This document shows, piece by piece, positions 43,737 to 52,870 of a DNA stretch of 64,000 bases (positions are counted from its first letter, which is position 1; every line of letters starts with the position of its first letter). The DNA comes from Asaia astilbis JCM 15831 (lineage in GTDB: Bacteria; Pseudomonadota; Alphaproteobacteria; Acetobacterales; Acetobacteraceae). Location of the stretch: assembly GCF_000613845.1 (NCBI RefSeq), contig NZ_BAJT01000005.1:62001-126000 (forward strand), given 5' to 3'. A program made the position numbers and the translations under genes. Under the pieces are notes generated by a model. The model did not search any database. It was not told where the DNA came from and saw only the letters and a list, made by a program, of their open reading frames with translations.

Positions 43737-44503
43737 TCAAATAACGTGAAGTGTCACATTGTTCGTCTCAAGATGTGTCTGAAATTCTTCGGAAGGGGCG
43801 CGATCTGTGACGAAGTCGTCGATCATCGAGAGATCACCCACGCGCCCTACAGGCTTGCGCGTGAATTTCGTATGATCGGCGAGAAGAATGACCCGTCGCG
43901 CGTGACGGATAATGGCGCGGGCACACTGGATTTCATCCAGATCGAAATCCAGAAGCGTGCCGTCTTCTTCAATCCCGCTAATGCCGATCACCCCGAAATC
44001 CGCACGGAAACCCGAGAGTGACTCGGTCGCGCCTGCCCCGACAATGCCGCCATCATGGGGGCGCACCAGCCCTCCGGCCAGCACGGTGCGAAAATCGCGC
44101 CGGGGGGAGAGGGCGGCAGCAACATGCAGATTATTAGTGATGACATGCAGATCGCGATGTCCGGTCAGGGCACGAGCGAATGCTTCTGTGGTGGTGCCGA
44201 TATTGATGAATAGCGAACTGCCATCCGGGATGAGAGCCGCCGCGCAGGCGCCAATCGCATCCTTGGCGCGGGAATGAAGTGTCTGGCGTTCACCATAAGC
44301 GATATTCTCGGTCGAGGATGTCGGGCTGCTCCGCCATGATACCGCGAGACATGTCCGGTCTCGGCCAGGGTATTGAGGTCTCGGCGGATTGTCTGCACGG
44401 TCACGCCCAGATGCTGGGCAAGGTCTTCATTCGACATGAAGCCATGTGCCTGAACGAGGGCAACGATCTGTCTGTGGCGTGGTGTGCTGAGAATGTCGTG
44501 CAT
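43737..44503 (-). CDS. glpR: DeoR-family glycerol regulon repressor (frame broken)
   Basis: The N-terminal winged HTH is [40 protein letters not shown], the classic DeoR start. The effector domain is in another frame and includes [30 protein letters not shown] and [10 protein letters not shown]. The break is at about 44320, where one base restored around GCCCGACATCC gives [19 protein letters not shown]. Repaired length is 255, the normal size. The second of two adjacent ATGs is better placed after AGAGG. It lies beside glpD and probably represses the glp genes, releasing in response to glycerol 3-phosphate. Confidence 0.9.
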
Positions 44504-44585
44504 CATGAACCTCTGTCTGTCATGGGGCGTTGTCGCCTACAATCCCGCTCTTGTGATGACGTTACTGAAGGCCCATTTCCAAGCC

Positions 44586-46801
44586 ATGGCGACACCGACC
44601 CGATCGACAATGGACGCAATCCCCGAGCACCGTCTTGTGGGGTTCAGGCCCGAACGCCAGCCCGTGAAGGAGAAGCTGCGTCAGCTTGTCGTCAAATCGG
44701 AATACGATCCTGCAGGAGATCAGCCGACGGCGATTGCCGAGCTGGTACAGGGCGTAAGCAATGGCGAGGTCGATCAGGTTCTGCTGGGCGTGACAGGCTC
44801 GGGCAAGACTTTCACCATGGCCAAGGTGATCGAGGCGACCCAGAAACCGGCGCTTATTCTCGCGCCGAACAAGACACTCGCGGCCCAGCTCTACGGCGAG
44901 ATGAAGCAGTTCTTTCCGGATAACGCGGTAGAGTATTTCGTCTCTTATTACGATTACTACCAGCCCGAAGCCTACGTGCCGCGCTCGGACACCTATATCG
45001 AAAAAGACAGCCAGATCAACGAGCAGATCGACCGGATGCGCCATGCCGCGACGCAGGCTCTGCTCGAGCGCAACGATGTCATTATCGTGGCCTCGGTCTC
45101 GTGCATTTACGGTATCGGCTCGGTCGAAACCTATTCGCGCATGGTCGTCAAACTTGAAGCTGGGGGCAGTATCGATCGGGAGCGGCTGATCAAGGCTCTG
45201 GTCGAATTGCAGTATCGACGCAACGATGCGGCGTTTGAGCGCGGGACGTTTCGCGTGCGGGGCGAGCAGGTCGACATCTTCCCTGTCCAGAACGAAGACC
45301 GCGCTTGGCGTGTGTCGCTCTTCGGTGACGAGATTGAAGCCATCACCGAATTCGACCCATTGACGGGTAACAAGACGGCCGACCTCACAGAAATCAGCGT
45401 CTATGCCAACTCGCATTATGTCACGCCGCGCCCGACGCTCAATCAGGCGATGATCGGGATCAAGGCGGAGCTGCGTCAACGGCTCGACGAGCTGAATGCG
45501 GCAGGGAAGCTGCTGGAAGCAGAGCGTTTACAGCAACGGACGATTTTCGATCTGGAGATGATCGAGACAACGGGCGCGTGCAAAGGCATCGAAAACTATT
45601 CGCGATATCTTTCCGGGCGTGGACCGGGCGACCCGCCACCGACTCTGTTCGAATATCTGCCAGAAGATGCCCTGCTGATTGTCGATGAAAGTCACGTTAC
45701 CGTGCCTCAGATCGGTGGCATGGCGCGCGGTGACTTTGCGCGTAAATCCGTGCTTTCCGAATACGGGTTCCGGCTGCCTTCCTGCCTCGATAACCGACCG
45801 TTGAAATTCGAAGAATGGGAAGCGCTGCGTCCTCAGAGCATCTTCGTCTCGGCCACGCCGGGCCCGTGGGAGATGGAGCGGACGAGCGGTGTGTTCGCCG
45901 AGCAGATCATTCGACCGACCGGATTGATCGACCCCGTGACCATCGTGCGACCGGTAGAAGGCAGGTGGATGATCTGCTCGCCGAGGCGCGTGAGACGATC
46001 AGTGCGGGTGGGCGCATTCTGGTGACGACGCTGACCAAGCGCATGGCAGAAGATCTGACCGAATATCTGGGCGAGGCCGGCATCAAGGTGCGGTATCTGC
46101 ATTCGGACGTGGATACGCTTGAGCGGATCGAGATCATTCGTGATCTGCGTCTCGGTGCTTTCGATGTTCTGGTCGGCATCAACCTGCTGCGAGAGGGTCT
46201 CGATATCCCCGAATGTGCTCTTGTTGCGATTCTGGATGCCGATAAGGAAGGCTTCCTGCGCAGCCGGACATCGCTGATCCAGACGATTGGACGCGCAGCA
46301 CGTAACGTCGATGGGCGTGTGCTGCTTTATGCTGACAGGATGACGGGATCGCTCGAGTTTGCGATCGACGAGACGGCCCGTCGCCGTGCGCGCCAGATTG
46401 CGTTCAACGAGGCCAATGGCATCACGCCGCAGAGCGTGCGCTCGCGTATCGGTGACGCCATGTCGTCTGTCTTTGAGCAGGACTATGTCACGGTTGGTCC
46501 GGATGCCGCAGGGGACACCCAGGAATTTGTCGGCAAGTCACTGGGCGCATCGATTCAGGATCTCGAAAAGCGGATGCGTGCGGCGGCAGCCGATCTCGAC
46601 TTCGAGCAGGCTGCGAGGCTGCGTGACGAGATCAAGCGTCTCGAGGCGATCGATCTCGGGTTGGAGCCGCCCCCCTTGCCGAGTTCGACTGCGGGGCGTA
46701 GCTCTTTCAAAAGCAAGGATAAAACTCCCCGCCCACTGGGTCCGGGGGGCGGTGGATACGATCCGTCGAAGAGGCGGGGCGGCAGGAGAAAAGCAGGATG
46801 A
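44586..46801 (+). CDS. uvrB: UvrABC system protein B (frame broken)
   Basis: UvrB verifies damage and loads UvrC in nucleotide excision repair. Walker A GVTGSGKT, the beta-hairpin [18 protein letters not shown], the DESH box in [12 protein letters not shown] and the helicase motifs [15 protein letters not shown] and QTIGRAARN are present, followed by the C-terminal UVR domain ([24 protein letters not shown]). The frame breaks at about 45962: one C restored in GAAGGCAGGTGG gives [16 protein letters not shown]. The repaired length from the ATG at 44586 is 738 residues. It overlaps the next gene by 4 bases. Confidence 0.95.
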
Positions 46802-49326: not shown

Positions 49327-49539
49327 TCAGTCCTTTTTCTCGGTTTCCGCTGCTGTCTGAGGGGTGTAGCGGAACGGGAGAGGGACTTCCGGGATTCCTT
49401 CTTCCGGGATCTTGGGCGGCGGAGAGGGGGCAAATCGATTGACGAGCCAGTCGCGAAGGTCGTCCTTGAATTTTACGAGGAATATCGACGCCCATAAGCC
49501 GAGAGCAAGGAAGACAAGACTGATATTCATGATCGACAT
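49327..49539 (-). CDS. Small single-pass membrane protein, unknown function
   Basis: From the ATG at 49539, preceded by AAGGGGGAC, the product is 70 residues. It has one hydrophobic segment near the N-terminus (about 4-21, ISLVFLALGLWASIFLV), then a short basic-amphipathic stretch and a Pro/Glu-rich soluble tail ending AETEKKD. The longer in-frame ATG adds 18 residues without a ribosome-binding site. It converges on gshB with a 14-base gap. I recognise no family. Confidence 0.6.
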   Translation of the reverse strand: MSIMNISLVFLALGLWASIFLVKFKDDLRDWLVNRFAPSPPPKIPEEGIPEVPLPFRYTPQTAAETEKKD

Positions 49540-49792
49540 TTCTTGTCCCCCTTCGCTGCGACCCGACCGACACTCCGGCTGTTCTTGCGTCATTTAGGCG
49601 GGACCGGATCGGAAATGCAAACCGCCTCTCGCCAGTGCTGACGAGATGGTTTAAGAGCGACCTGACATTACGACGCCTGTCCAAGAGCCTGACCATCAGG
49701 TTGATTTTGAACGGCCCTCGCCAAAAGCGGGGGTATGAAGCAGATATCAGGATGGAATTGATTACTGTGCGCGACCGAACGAACGAAGCCTG

Positions 49793-50491
49793 ATGACACT
49801 CCCGGACCCCTTGACCGAACCGACCGCCTCTCTCGACGATACCCATCCCCGCCCGCGCTCGGCTCTGGATGCCGATGCGGTGCGTGCGGCGTATCGTCGC
49901 TGGGCGAAGGTCTATGACTCCGTCTTCGGCGGTATTTCCGCCTTCGGCAGGCGTCGCGCCGTCGCTGCGGTGAACGCCCTGCCAGGGCAGCGCGTCCTTG
50001 AAGTAGGCGTTGGCACCGGACTGGCTCTGCCGCATTACAACCGCGACAAGCACATCACCGGGATCGATCTCTCCGAGGCGATGCTGGAGCGTGCGCGTCA
50101 GCGCGTCATCAGCCAGCAGCTTGGCAATGTCGATGATCTGCTTGAAATGGATGCTGAAGCGACAAGCTTCGAGACCGGAAGTTTCGACATTGCCGTCGCC
50201 ATGTTCGTCGCGTCTGTGGTGCCCAGCCCCCGTCGTCTGCTGGGTGAACTCAAGCGCGTCGTCAAACCGGGCGGGCATATCCTGTTCGTGAACCATTTTC
50301 TGGCCACGGGCGGTGTTCGCCTTGTTGTCGAACGTGGCATGGCACGCGCTTCGCGCTCGCTCGGCTGGCATCCTGATTTTGCAATTGAATCTTTGCTGCC
50401 TCCCGAAGATCTGCGTGTTGCGTCTATCGTTCCTGTGCCGCCGGCAGGGCTGTTTACGCTCGTGACATTGCCGCTCGACGGGACTAAATAA
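49793..50491 (+). CDS. Class I SAM-dependent methyltransferase, PmtA/UbiE-like
   Basis: The 232-residue protein has AYRRWAKVYDSVFGGISAFGRRRAV, followed by motif I VLEVGVGTGLALPHY, and motif II around FDIAVAMFVASVVPSP. The start pattern Y-x-R-W-A-x-V-YD-x3-G is that of phosphatidylethanolamine N-methyltransferase (PmtA) and of related UbiE-like enzymes. Acetic acid bacteria make phosphatidylcholine by this route, so PmtA is plausible, but activity cannot be proved from motifs. A proline-rich N-terminal extension of about 25 residues precedes the core. Confidence 0.85.
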   Translation: MTLPDPLTEPTASLDDTHPRPRSALDADAVRAAYRRWAKVYDSVFGGISAFGRRRAVAAVNALPGQRVLEVGVGTGLALPHYNRDKHITGIDLSEAMLERARQRVISQQLGNVDDLLEMDAEATSFETGSFDIAVAMFVASVVPSPRRLLGELKRVVKPGGHILFVNHFLATGGVRLVVERGMARASRSLGWHPDFAIESLLPPEDLRVASIVPVPPAGLFTLVTLPLDGTK

Positions 50492-50616
50492 AGACGAGAT
50501 GGCCCTGGTTGCCTGACACATACGTGCCCGACACTTGAAACCAGACTGGCCTTGATTACGGGGTCCCGCGAAGCGCTGCGTTGGTGGGACCTTCAGGACT
50601 GTATGAGGAACCGGGC

Positions 50617-51825
50617 TTGTTGAATCGATCGATCACGGGACGCTCCCACGGCCAGAAGCTTCAGGCAGATGGCGCCGCCTTTCTGGGTCTGTCCCTTGTT
50701 TGCGGCCTTGCAGGTGGTTTTCTGGGAGCGATTTCTCCGGCTCTCAGCCCTTTTCATGCTTTGAGCCACGGGCTCCTTCTGGACCTGTACGTTCTTATCC
50801 CGGCATTTCTGGGTGGGATGGGGCGTCTGGTCCTTCCCGGTGAGCTGACGACGACACCGAGTCTGATGGCGCGGTTCGATCGTTTTGCCTTCCTCTCCCT
50901 GCTCCTTGGCGCCTTCTTCGCGGTTTCAGGGGCCTGGGAGCCGCGCGTGTTCATCGGATCTCTCGCGCTCTGGTGCGCTGGCACGACCCTTCTTGCGCTC
51001 TCAACCATCGTCAAATGTCTCGAGTGCCGCGTCGTTCGGTTTCGGGATCTCTCCCCGTTTACCTGGTCGCAGCTCCTCGCTTCACTCGGCCTGATCGTTG
51101 TGACACCCGTCCTTCTGGCTGGTCTGGTTCATGATCTTGCTGCGGGTCATGCAAGCTTTTCCACGGTGCAGTATTGGCTCGGCAGGATCCAGATTCCCGT
51201 TCTGGCCCTTGTGATCCAGCTCGCTCTGGGCGCGATTGCCAATCTGGTGTCGTTCCATTCGACACGTCTCAAGATTTCCTTGCCGCTGTTCCTCGCAGTT
51301 CCCAGCCTCGGGGTCCCGGTGGTCTGGGCCCATGGCATCACCGTGCCGGGTCTCGATGACGCATGGGTGCTCGCTCTGGGCGTGGCACTCCCGAGTTCCG
51401 GTGTCATGGCGATGATCTGTGCGGCGCTCTGGCGTCGTCACTACGAATTGACTGCAGCGCTCTCCTGGAGCTTCCCGGCGTTGCTTCTGCTCTCGGCAGG
51501 CTGGGTGCTGAGCCTGTTTCCCGTCCATCCGGCGGCCTTTCATTCGGCAATGCTGTTTGGCGCCGTCTTCGCCCTGTTTGGCTGCTATTACCGCTGGCAG
51601 GAGCAGTTTCCTGCGCTCGCCGTGCCTCATTGGCTGGGACGGGTCCATCTTGTCGCGATGGGGGTTTCCGTCCTTGCCATGATGCCCTTTCTGCCGCTGC
51701 TGCGTTATGGCGGTGAGTTCGGGATGATTGTCTCGCTTTTCTGCGTCGCGGTGCTGGGAGCAAGGATGCTCGCCCCGAGGCAGGTTGCTGCCTCTGAGGC
51801 TGTCGCGAAAGCCGATTTCTCATGA
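50617..51825 (+). CDS. Degenerate heme-copper oxidase subunit I homologue (CtaD-like, no binuclear centre)
   Basis: From the TTG at 50617 (AGGA 7 bases upstream) the protein is 402 residues with about 11-12 hydrophobic segments and no frame break. It aligns with cytochrome oxidase subunit I through SHGLLLDLYVLIPAFLGGMG (helix II), the ALSTIVKCLECR stretch, TPVLLAGLVHDLAAGH (helix V), VPVVWAHGITVPG (helix VII), VALPSSGVMAMICAALW (helix VIII) and AAFHSAMLFGAVFALFGCYY (helix X). The two low-spin heme ligands are kept: His51 and His309. The high-spin heme His is Ala307, helix VI GHPEVY reads GRIQIP, the helix VII His-His is His239-Gly, and the helix VIII Lys is lost. It cannot reduce oxygen. It precedes ctaB with a 4-base overlap. 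Confidence 0.8.
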   Translation: MLNRSITGRSHGQKLQADGAAFLGLSLVCGLAGGFLGAISPALSPFHALSHGLLLDLYVLIPAFLGGMGRLVLPGELTTTPSLMARFDRFAFLSLLLGAFFAVSGAWEPRVFIGSLALWCAGTTLLALSTIVKCLECRVVRFRDLSPFTWSQLLASLGLIVVTPVLLAGLVHDLAAGHASFSTVQYWLGRIQIPVLALVIQLALGAIANLVSFHSTRLKISLPLFLAVPSLGVPVVWAHGITVPGLDDAWVLALGVALPSSGVMAMICAALWRRHYELTAALSWSFPALLLLSAGWVLSLFPVHPAAFHSAMLFGAVFALFGCYYRWQEQFPALAVPHWLGRVHLVAMGVSVLAMMPFLPLLRYGGEFGMIVSLFCVAVLGARMLAPRQVAASEAVAKADFS

Positions 51826-52763
51826 GTGCCTCCCAGTCTTTGCCGGTGGCTGAAAGTCGTTTCGACAAGGAAGAGGGGGCGACACTCAAGGACTGGCTGG
51901 CGCTTCTCAAGCCCCGCGTCATTTCGCTGGTCGTCTTTACCGGTGTGGCTGGGATGGCTGTCGCACCGCAATGGCCGTCCGTGCCTCTGGGTCTCATCGA
52001 TATGCTGTGTATCTGTGTTGGGGCCGGCGCAGCGGGCGCCATCAATATGTGGTACGATCGCGATATCGACGCGATCATGAAGCGCACGTCGGTTCGTCCT
52101 ATTCCTGACTCGCGCATGGATGCCGACGGTGCTCTGATCTACGGCATTGTCCTATCTGTGGCGTCGGTTGCGCTGCTCTGGCTGGCGAGCAATGCGCTGG
52201 CGGCTGGCATTCTGGCGTTTTCGATCTTCTTTTACGCTGTCATCTATACGATGTGGCTTAAGCGCAGCACGCCCCAGAATATCGTTATCGGGGGGGCTGC
52301 TGGTGCGTTTCCCCCCATGATCGGCTGGGCTGCTGCGACAGGCTCAATGAGCGTTTTGCCGGTTGTCATGTTTGCGATCGTCTTCCTGTGGACGCCGCCT
52401 CATTTCTGGTCGCTCTCGCTCTACGCGTGTAAGGACTACACCAAGGCGGGCATTCCGATGCTGCCTGTGGTCAAAGGGGCGCGCCACACGCGCTGGAATA
52501 TCTTCGTTTACACGCTGATCTTGCTGGCGGTCTCGCTCGTTCCGTCTTTCCTGAATTTGTGCAGCAAGACCTACACGATTAGCGCCACGGTGCTCGGGCT
52601 CGGTTTTGTGGGTTTTGCCTTGCGTGTCCTGTTCGACCGTCAGGATGAAACGGGCGTGAGCCTTACCGCCGATAAGCCTGCGCGTCATGCGTTTCGCTAT
52701 TCGCTGGCCTACCTGTTCTTTCTGTTTTCCGCCCTGCTGATCGACCGGGTGCTCTTCGCATGA
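51822..52763 (+). CDS. ctaB: Protoheme IX farnesyltransferase (heme O synthase)
   Basis: CtaB/CyoE attaches a farnesyl group to heme B, giving heme O for terminal oxidases. The 313-residue protein has the UbiA-type prenyltransferase motif NMWYDRDIDAIMKRT, the second Asp-rich region near KDYTKAGIPMLP, and about nine hydrophobic segments. The start overlaps the CtaD-like gene (ATGA) and the end overlaps a micro-ORF (ATGA). In acetic acid bacteria heme O serves the bo3 ubiquinol oxidase, so this gene would stay essential even without an aa3 oxidase. All active-site residues I can identify are intact, unlike its upstream partner. Confidence 0.94.
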   Translation: MSASQSLPVAESRFDKEEGATLKDWLALLKPRVISLVVFTGVAGMAVAPQWPSVPLGLIDMLCICVGAGAAGAINMWYDRDIDAIMKRTSVRPIPDSRMDADGALIYGIVLSVASVALLWLASNALAAGILAFSIFFYAVIYTMWLKRSTPQNIVIGGAAGAFPPMIGWAAATGSMSVLPVVMFAIVFLWTPPHFWSLSLYACKDYTKAGIPMLPVVKGARHTRWNIFVYTLILLAVSLVPSFLNLCSKTYTISATVLGLGFVGFALRVLFDRQDETGVSLTADKPARHAFRYSLAYLFFLFSALLIDRVLFA

Positions 52764-52870
52764 AGAAGGGACTTGCCTTGACTCGACGTCAGGAGCGCAT
52801 CCTTGGCCTGCTGGGAGGACTCTCCCTCGTCATGGTCTCGCTGTTTGCCCTGACGTATCTGCGCCTCTAG
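52760..52870 (+). CDS. CoxF-like micro-protein (36 residues)
   Basis: The ORF starts with an ATG overlapping the ctaB stop (ATGA) and ends at TAG 52868-52870. It has a basic N-terminus (MKKGLALTRRQERI), then one membrane segment (about 15-33, LGLLGGLSLVMVSLFALTY) and ends LRL. Small one-pass proteins of this shape (CoxF), or the start of CtaG/Cox11, follow ctaB in alphaproteobacterial cytochrome c oxidase operons. The copper-binding part of CtaG is absent. It fits the view that this operon is a reduced aa3-oxidase operon. Confidence 0.6.
   Translation: MKKGLALTRRQERILGLLGGLSLVMVSLFALTYLRL

Follow-up and report, generated by a model that had tools for sequence, protein, structure and literature searches.

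The COX1-like locus of Asaia

The window, that is, the whole stretch of 64,000 nucleotides of Asaia astilbis JCM 15831 DNA analysed here, contains a COX1-like gene immediately upstream of the heme O synthase gene ctaB. The gene looks like a degenerate ctaD, the gene of subunit I of aa3-type oxidase, and is called the relic below. The following features were recorded at the locus.

49793..50491, + strand: PmtA-like methyltransferase gene, the conserved upstream neighbour (NCBIfam PmtA 149 bits, below the cut-off of 390)
50605..50610, + strand: Shine-Dalgarno-like GAGGAA, 6 nt 5' of the TTG codon of the relic (read in the sequence)
50617..51825, + strand: COX1-like relic (degenerate CtaD), 402 aa, TTG start (open frame, COX1/CtaD homology)
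50767..50769, + strand: His51 codon CAC, counterpart of the low-spin heme ligand H94 in helix II (profile alignment to 3ehb_A)
51535..51537, + strand: Ala307 codon, aligned with H411, the high-spin heme ligand that was lost (alignments to CtaD)
51541..51543, + strand: His309 codon CAT, counterpart of the low-spin heme ligand H413 in helix X (profile alignment to 3ehb_A)
51822..52763, + strand: ctaB (heme O synthase), with its ATG overlapping the TGA of the relic as ATGA (NCBIfam cyoE_ctaB 321 bits, NF003349 330.7 bits)
52760..52870, + strand: mini-ORF of 36 aa with one helix, overlapping the ctaB stop codon as ATGA (read in the window)

The frame of the relic has no stop codon between the TTG at 50617 and the TGA at 51823-51825, and the product has 12 Kyte-Doolittle peaks above 1.3, corresponding to approximately 12 helices. 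The initial annotation had described a clean reading frame with retained membrane helices, and this observation on the window relic is confirmed. The TTG start is supported by the Shine-Dalgarno-like motif six nucleotides upstream. The arrangement GGAAC-GG--TTG is common to the eight Asaia loci printed and to the neighbouring genus g9.

The methyltransferase gene and the relic are separated by 126 bp, and thus there is no room for ctaC in the window. No gene of a partner or an electron donor was recognised between the methyltransferase gene and the mini-ORF. The latter is presumably CoxF-like, judging by its position. Among 21 loci inspected by eye, including three with true CtaD, 18 have a similar mini-ORF downstream of ctaB; comparison of the mini-ORFs with Pfam and NCBIfam yielded no family match beyond chance scores.

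Two other frames of the window may be mentioned. The uvrB gene occupies two overlapping frames (44484-46025 and 45815-46801, + strand) with Pfam UvrB domains in both pieces, and this frame change may be either real or a sequencing error. An ORF of 88 aa on the - strand (49327-49593) contains one hydrophobic stretch, as judged by eye, and has no Pfam match.

Descent of the relic from CtaD

The Pfam COX1 model matches the window relic with 19.5 bits (E 5e-4; the gathering cut-off is 34.8), and matches at E 0.01 were obtained for 10 of the 17 rows of alignment A1. A phmmer search of PDB with the relic retrieved the CtaD protein of Paracoccus denitrificans (E 1.3e-5). The family profile built from 17 homologues matches the same protein (3ehb_A) with E 5.5e-54 and 187 bits, compared to 84 bits for CyoB of E. 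coli. The homology covers most of the length of the relic, in agreement with the nearly full-length alignment to aa3-type subunit I described initially. A TraD match in NCBIfam (13.6 bits against a cut-off of 366) was taken as chance.

The relic is assigned to CtaD-type subunit I by descent, since its profile matches 3ehb_A much better than CyoB. In a tree of 39 of the 103 relics, 15 CtaD and 3 CyoB proteins with CyoB as the outgroup, all relics cluster together (SH-aLRT 100) and branch with the CtaD rows; this is a quick tree with many long branches, which according to a warning of the program can produce false joins. Descent from CyoB was rejected on the profile scores together with the tree. 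Judging by the position in the locus and by the tree, the relic is what CtaD turned into.

Conservation of the heme ligand positions

Two invariant histidine columns of the family profile coincide with H94 and H413 of Paracoccus CtaD (3ehb_A; the residue numbers were counted by hand from the alignment coordinates). We take these two residues of the P. denitrificans protein to be the ligands of the low-spin heme. In the window relic these columns hold His51 and His309, and so both residues that had been named initially do fall on the ligand positions. The other sites of CtaD are degraded. Ala307 is aligned with the high-spin ligand H411, as had been stated, and helix VII carries His239-Gly240 where CtaD has the His-His pair H325/H326, again as annotated. 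The absence of the K-channel lysine also holds, the K354 column being occupied by Ile or Val in all eight Asaia rows. For helix VI, the loss of the CuB histidine and of the cross-linked tyrosine was upheld and the sequence given for it had to be revised: in the phmmer alignment, GHPEVY is opposite QIPVLA, with the proline common to both, and not opposite GRIQIP.

Homologues of the relic were sought with a profile in a sample of 397 genomes of the family. Those with short frames (mostly 400-500 aa) scored higher than true CtaD proteins, whose frames mostly span 530-590 aa. An initial set of 93 relics was extracted, and then 11 weaker ones, one of them repeating G295, which gives 103 distinct relics in 20 genera, a family-wide distribution, with the median pairwise identity of 26%. 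One duplicate (L138, identical to L058) was left out and two entries from one genome (L147 and L122) were counted once; the ligand counts are given without the split copy of G007 (L010, L022, L027, L040). Scans of viral contigs produced two relatives of CtaD and no match for the relic.

Both low-spin histidines are present in all 103 relics, both in the MAFFT and in the hmmalign alignment; such retention in two separate alignments is not a matter of chance. H276, Y280 and K354 are found in none of the 103 relics, H411 in two (L094 and L118), H325 in 46 and H326 in 10, and no relic has all three CuB histidines. Of 258 columns that are invariant in 14 true CtaD proteins, eight are unchanged throughout the 93 relics of the first set: two glycines, the two low-spin histidines, three tryptophans and one tyrosine. 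The probability that a random draw of eight columns contains both named histidines is 0.0008. Similarly, among 15 histidines invariant in the same 14 proteins, the low-spin pair alone is retained in 93 of 93 relics, and the next best one is seen in 87.

The positions of R473/R474 and of the HDTY loop are gapped in 93 of 93 relics. The two arginines of CtaD presumably hold the heme propionates, and thus the heme pocket of the relics should be at least altered; their loss speaks against an unchanged pocket. Structure prediction by AlphaFold from a six-sequence alignment of the relic gave pLDDT 44 and no usable model.

Several relics deviate from the common form. Those of G119 (L157) and G021 (L154) have longer frames, 526 and 482 aa respectively, with a CtaD-like C-terminal end and with the catalytic residues already missing; they possibly represent early stages of decay. 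The relic of G007, a draft genome of Asaia platycodi, lies in two frames split around residue 80, and is the sole broken copy found. Each of its pieces shows its histidine when read separately, and the split may be either real or an assembly error.

Selection on the relic

The relic is under purifying selection. Genus medians of dN/dS range from 0.079 to 0.309 in eight genera (counting estimates by NG86 throughout; 216 of 387 pairs were usable, with dS of 0.05-1.5). The corresponding medians for ctaB from the same genomes are 0.021-0.12, and constraint on the relic is 2.6 to 4.9 times looser than on ctaB when compared genus by genus. A relic was read in 104 genomes, and in 103 of them its frame is intact. 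The mean patristic distance is 2.98 for the relic versus 0.82 for ctaB (64 loci).

The initial annotation had suggested selection for something besides oxygen reduction, and had named dN/dS near one with stops in close relatives as the sign of a plain pseudogene. The low ratios, the intact frames and the universal presence of both histidines bear out the suggestion. The plain pseudogene was rejected on the low dN/dS together with the retention of both histidines.

Linkage to ctaB and co-occurrence

In all 103 relic loci the relic is followed directly by ctaB on the same strand. The stop codon of the relic lies within ATGA in 61 of 93 loci, and in the window the same ATGA starts ctaB. True CtaD genes are adjoined by ctaB in 11 of 14 loci. 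The linkage being thus inherited from CtaD, a joint loss of the relic and ctaB could result from one deletion. A homologue of the methyltransferase gene occurs upstream in all 64 relic loci that were fetched with flanks of about 3 kb; among the 14 loci with true CtaD, 8 contain it at some position.

Evolutionary distances of the relic covary with those of ctaB. With the methyltransferase controlled for, the partial correlation is 0.63, and none of 2000 permutations gave a value as high (64 loci, 10 genera); it is 0.28 between the relic and the methyltransferase with ctaB controlled for, and 0.37 between ctaB and the methyltransferase. With one control gene and few genera, this covariation is no more than suggestive.

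The relic was found in 104 of 105 surveyed genomes from the 20 genera (counting the G007 split copy), a ratio that is partly built in, as the genera were chosen by having the relic. The exception, G255, has no CtaB above the cut-off and no Pfam COX1 match. Four complete genomes from other genera (G037, G163, G114 and G118) similarly have neither the relic nor CtaB above the cut-off, and either no COX1 match or a weak one of 139-145 bits in a frame of 785-833 aa, which we take to be a NOR-type protein. The relic, CtaB and any CyoB-like protein are thus jointly missing from five relatives. A COX1-family match with E 1e-138 or better, taken to be of the CyoB type, was obtained in each of the 75 relic genomes searched. 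In the genome of the window this match is CyoB (E 3.3e-217 to subunit I of the E. coli bo3 oxidase).

CtaA is present in 36 of the same 75 relic genomes and missing in 39. It was found in none of the five Asaia genomes searched, and therefore heme A is an unlikely ligand of the relic in Asaia and was rejected as a candidate there. Of 30 genomes searched for SURF1, it occurs in the two that have true CtaD beside ctaB, and in none of the 28 others (26 with the relic and two with neither gene). The disappearance of SURF1 while the relic and ctaB stay points to selective retention of these two genes. Cox11 was found in none of 30 genomes, including the two with true CtaD, so its absence is uninformative.

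Six genomes contain ctaB above the cut-off with no COX1-like gene adjoining. A methyltransferase gene adjoins ctaB in four of them (G009, G101, G225, G293), and neither a methyltransferase nor a COX1-like gene does in G125 and G058. In general, therefore, CtaB needs no COX1-like protein. In the ctaB tree, five of these genomes (G293, G225, G101, G009 and G125) are on the CtaD side, and the relic genomes form one side of a branch with support 85; G058 was left out of this tree, the row of L041 has residues in 12% of its columns, and the tree is arbitrarily rooted. The genus of G293 contains two other genomes with intact CtaD: in L183 ten of ten positions are as in true CtaD, and in L179, which is truncated by the start of its contig, nine positions are. 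Within the relic genera, no genome was found that had lost the relic and kept ctaB. The place before ctaB was not judged in G039 (genus g32) and G015, where ctaB is at contig ends, and in G348 a COX1-like end of 117 aa is found at the contig start.

Relation to described genes and systems

The gene itself is already known in print. PMC10715153 describes, in Acetobacter spp., a deranged COX1-like gene lacking any conserved metal-binding residue, which is clustered with CtaB and probably stabilises it; Matsutani 2014 is cited there for the gene. In PMC5158111, ctaD (APT_01775), adjoining ctaB (APT_01774), is listed among genes conserved in three genomes of A. pasteurianus, and PMC6915089 regards the ctaB and ctaA genes of this species as functional remnants of an oxidase cluster. 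By its description, the deranged Acetobacter protein belongs to the same gene family and has the same neighbour as the relic, and clustering of the COX1-like gene with ctaB, as described for acetic acid bacteria, is seen in 103 of 103 relic loci, the window in Asaia among them. However, the Acetobacter protein is said to be without all metal ligands, whereas every one of the 103 relics has both low-spin histidines; on the alignments, the printed loss of all metal-binding residues, stated for Acetobacter spp., is contradicted by every relic read. In the portions of the literature searched, no earlier description was found of the bis-His site being kept throughout or of selection on the relic.

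The relic resembles CtaD (COX1, subunit I of the A1-type aa3 oxidase) over most of its length, in the 12 hydrophobic peaks, in the low-spin histidine pair and in having ctaB as a neighbour. It differs in the loss of the high-spin ligand, of the complete CuB site, of the cross-linked tyrosine and of the K-channel lysine, in the gaps at the HDTY loop and R473/R474, and, in the window, in leaving no room for ctaC. A likeness to CtaA (Cox15) would consist in the proposed way of working, namely that of a heme O acceptor beside CtaB. Unlike CtaA, the relic has no match to the CtaA family, and it occurs both with and without CtaA. SURF1 is a proposed heme a chaperone for COX1, and the relic may be similar to it in a heme-holding role in oxidase biogenesis. 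However, these are different proteins, and the 26 relic genomes examined yielded no SURF1.

Possible function

Of the three functions suggested in the initial annotation, the CtaB-linked one is favoured by the neighbourhood, both by the constant position of ctaB and by the five relatives devoid of the relic, CtaB and CyoB-like proteins. For a quinol-site or an electron-carrier role, nothing specifically supporting either was found.

Our preferred reading, held at a little under even confidence, is that the relic is a catalytically dead CtaD that may now bind heme in the membrane as a partner of CtaB, the heme O synthase. It starts from what was computed directly, that is, the homology to CtaD, the loss of the high-spin and CuB sites, the bis-His pair in the 103 relics read, purifying selection and constant linkage to ctaB, and it is favoured because the bis-His site is retained. 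Acetic acid bacteria would have replaced cytochrome c oxidase by quinol oxidases, and the dead CtaD would have stayed. One heme, either heme O or the substrate heme B, and in Asaia not heme A, would be held between His51 and His309. The relic would stabilise or activate CtaB and/or take up newly made heme O, which would then pass on to CyoB, and to CtaA where it is present. Heme binding, the identity of the heme, the contact with CtaB and the hand-over are all suggested by sequence comparison, and as a mechanism this is plausible. We know of no resolved route by which heme O or heme A passes from the synthase into the oxidase. A more specialised version, with the relic as a dedicated carrier that would bring heme O, at the old low-spin site, from CtaB to the replacement quinol oxidase in about 20 genera, is a tentative possibility and on balance rather unlikely.

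Support of CtaB by a COX1-like protein has a precedent, since the yeast Cox10 protein (CtaB) apparently requires freshly synthesised Cox1 for its multimerisation, according to a review (PMC7140478). Heme A synthase (CtaA/Cox15) can form a complex with CtaB that is presumed to tunnel heme O, as stated in PMC9145763. In the excerpt of a complexome study of Paracoccus (PMC5249081), neither heme A synthase nor CtaB is seen in stable contact with subunit I.

The function proposed in PMC10715153 is purely structural, the deranged protein stabilising CtaB without any metal cofactor. The constant linkage to ctaB agrees with it. However, both heme ligands would then be needless, whereas at the median identity of 26%, with eight of the 258 CtaD-invariant columns surviving, two of the eight are the low-spin histidines, and the loss of all metal ligands in print is not seen in any of the 103 relics; we regard this explanation as unlikely. 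A stand-alone bis-His cytochrome b or o, working as an electron carrier or interacting with quinol, would account for the bis-His site and the conserved tryptophans and tyrosine, and the oxidase of the COX1 family strongly matched in 75 of 75 relic genomes, CyoB in the genome of the window, is consistent with such a role. The link to ctaB would be historical only, but the absence of the relic in the five relatives coincides with that of CtaB and CyoB-like proteins, R473/R474 and the HDTY loop are gapped in 93 of 93 relics, and no gene for a partner or donor is recognised between the methyltransferase gene and the mini-ORF, all of which makes this role quite doubtful.

The same distribution of CyoB, with a match of its type in 75 of 75 relic genomes and a weak match or none in the five relatives without the relic and CtaB, could also reflect a subunit of the bo3/ba3 quinol oxidase with an accessory or assembly role, that is, a dead paralogue pairing with CyoB or holding it during heme insertion. 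Such a subunit is improbable, given that the relic is situated outside the cyo operon (on a different contig in G000). Finally, the relic might be a pseudogene or a slowly decaying leftover, its frame being kept by chance or by translational coupling to ctaB. Its evolution is indeed much faster than that of ctaB (2.98 versus 0.82), and one copy, in the draft genome of Asaia platycodi, is split; against this stand the dN/dS medians of 0.08-0.31, the intact frame in 103 of 104 genomes and both histidines in 103 of 103 relics, and decay is very hard to reconcile with them.

If a dead COX1 has been kept across 20 genera with its low-spin site only, it would be a natural separation-of-function form, capable of accepting heme without catalysis. 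The retained bis-His pair bears on the published statement of total metal-ligand loss. Should the relic indeed be a partner of CtaB, it would exemplify the conversion of an enzyme into a cofactor helper; should it be a carrier of heme O, the heme delivery step of oxidase assembly would survive in these bacteria as a separate protein.
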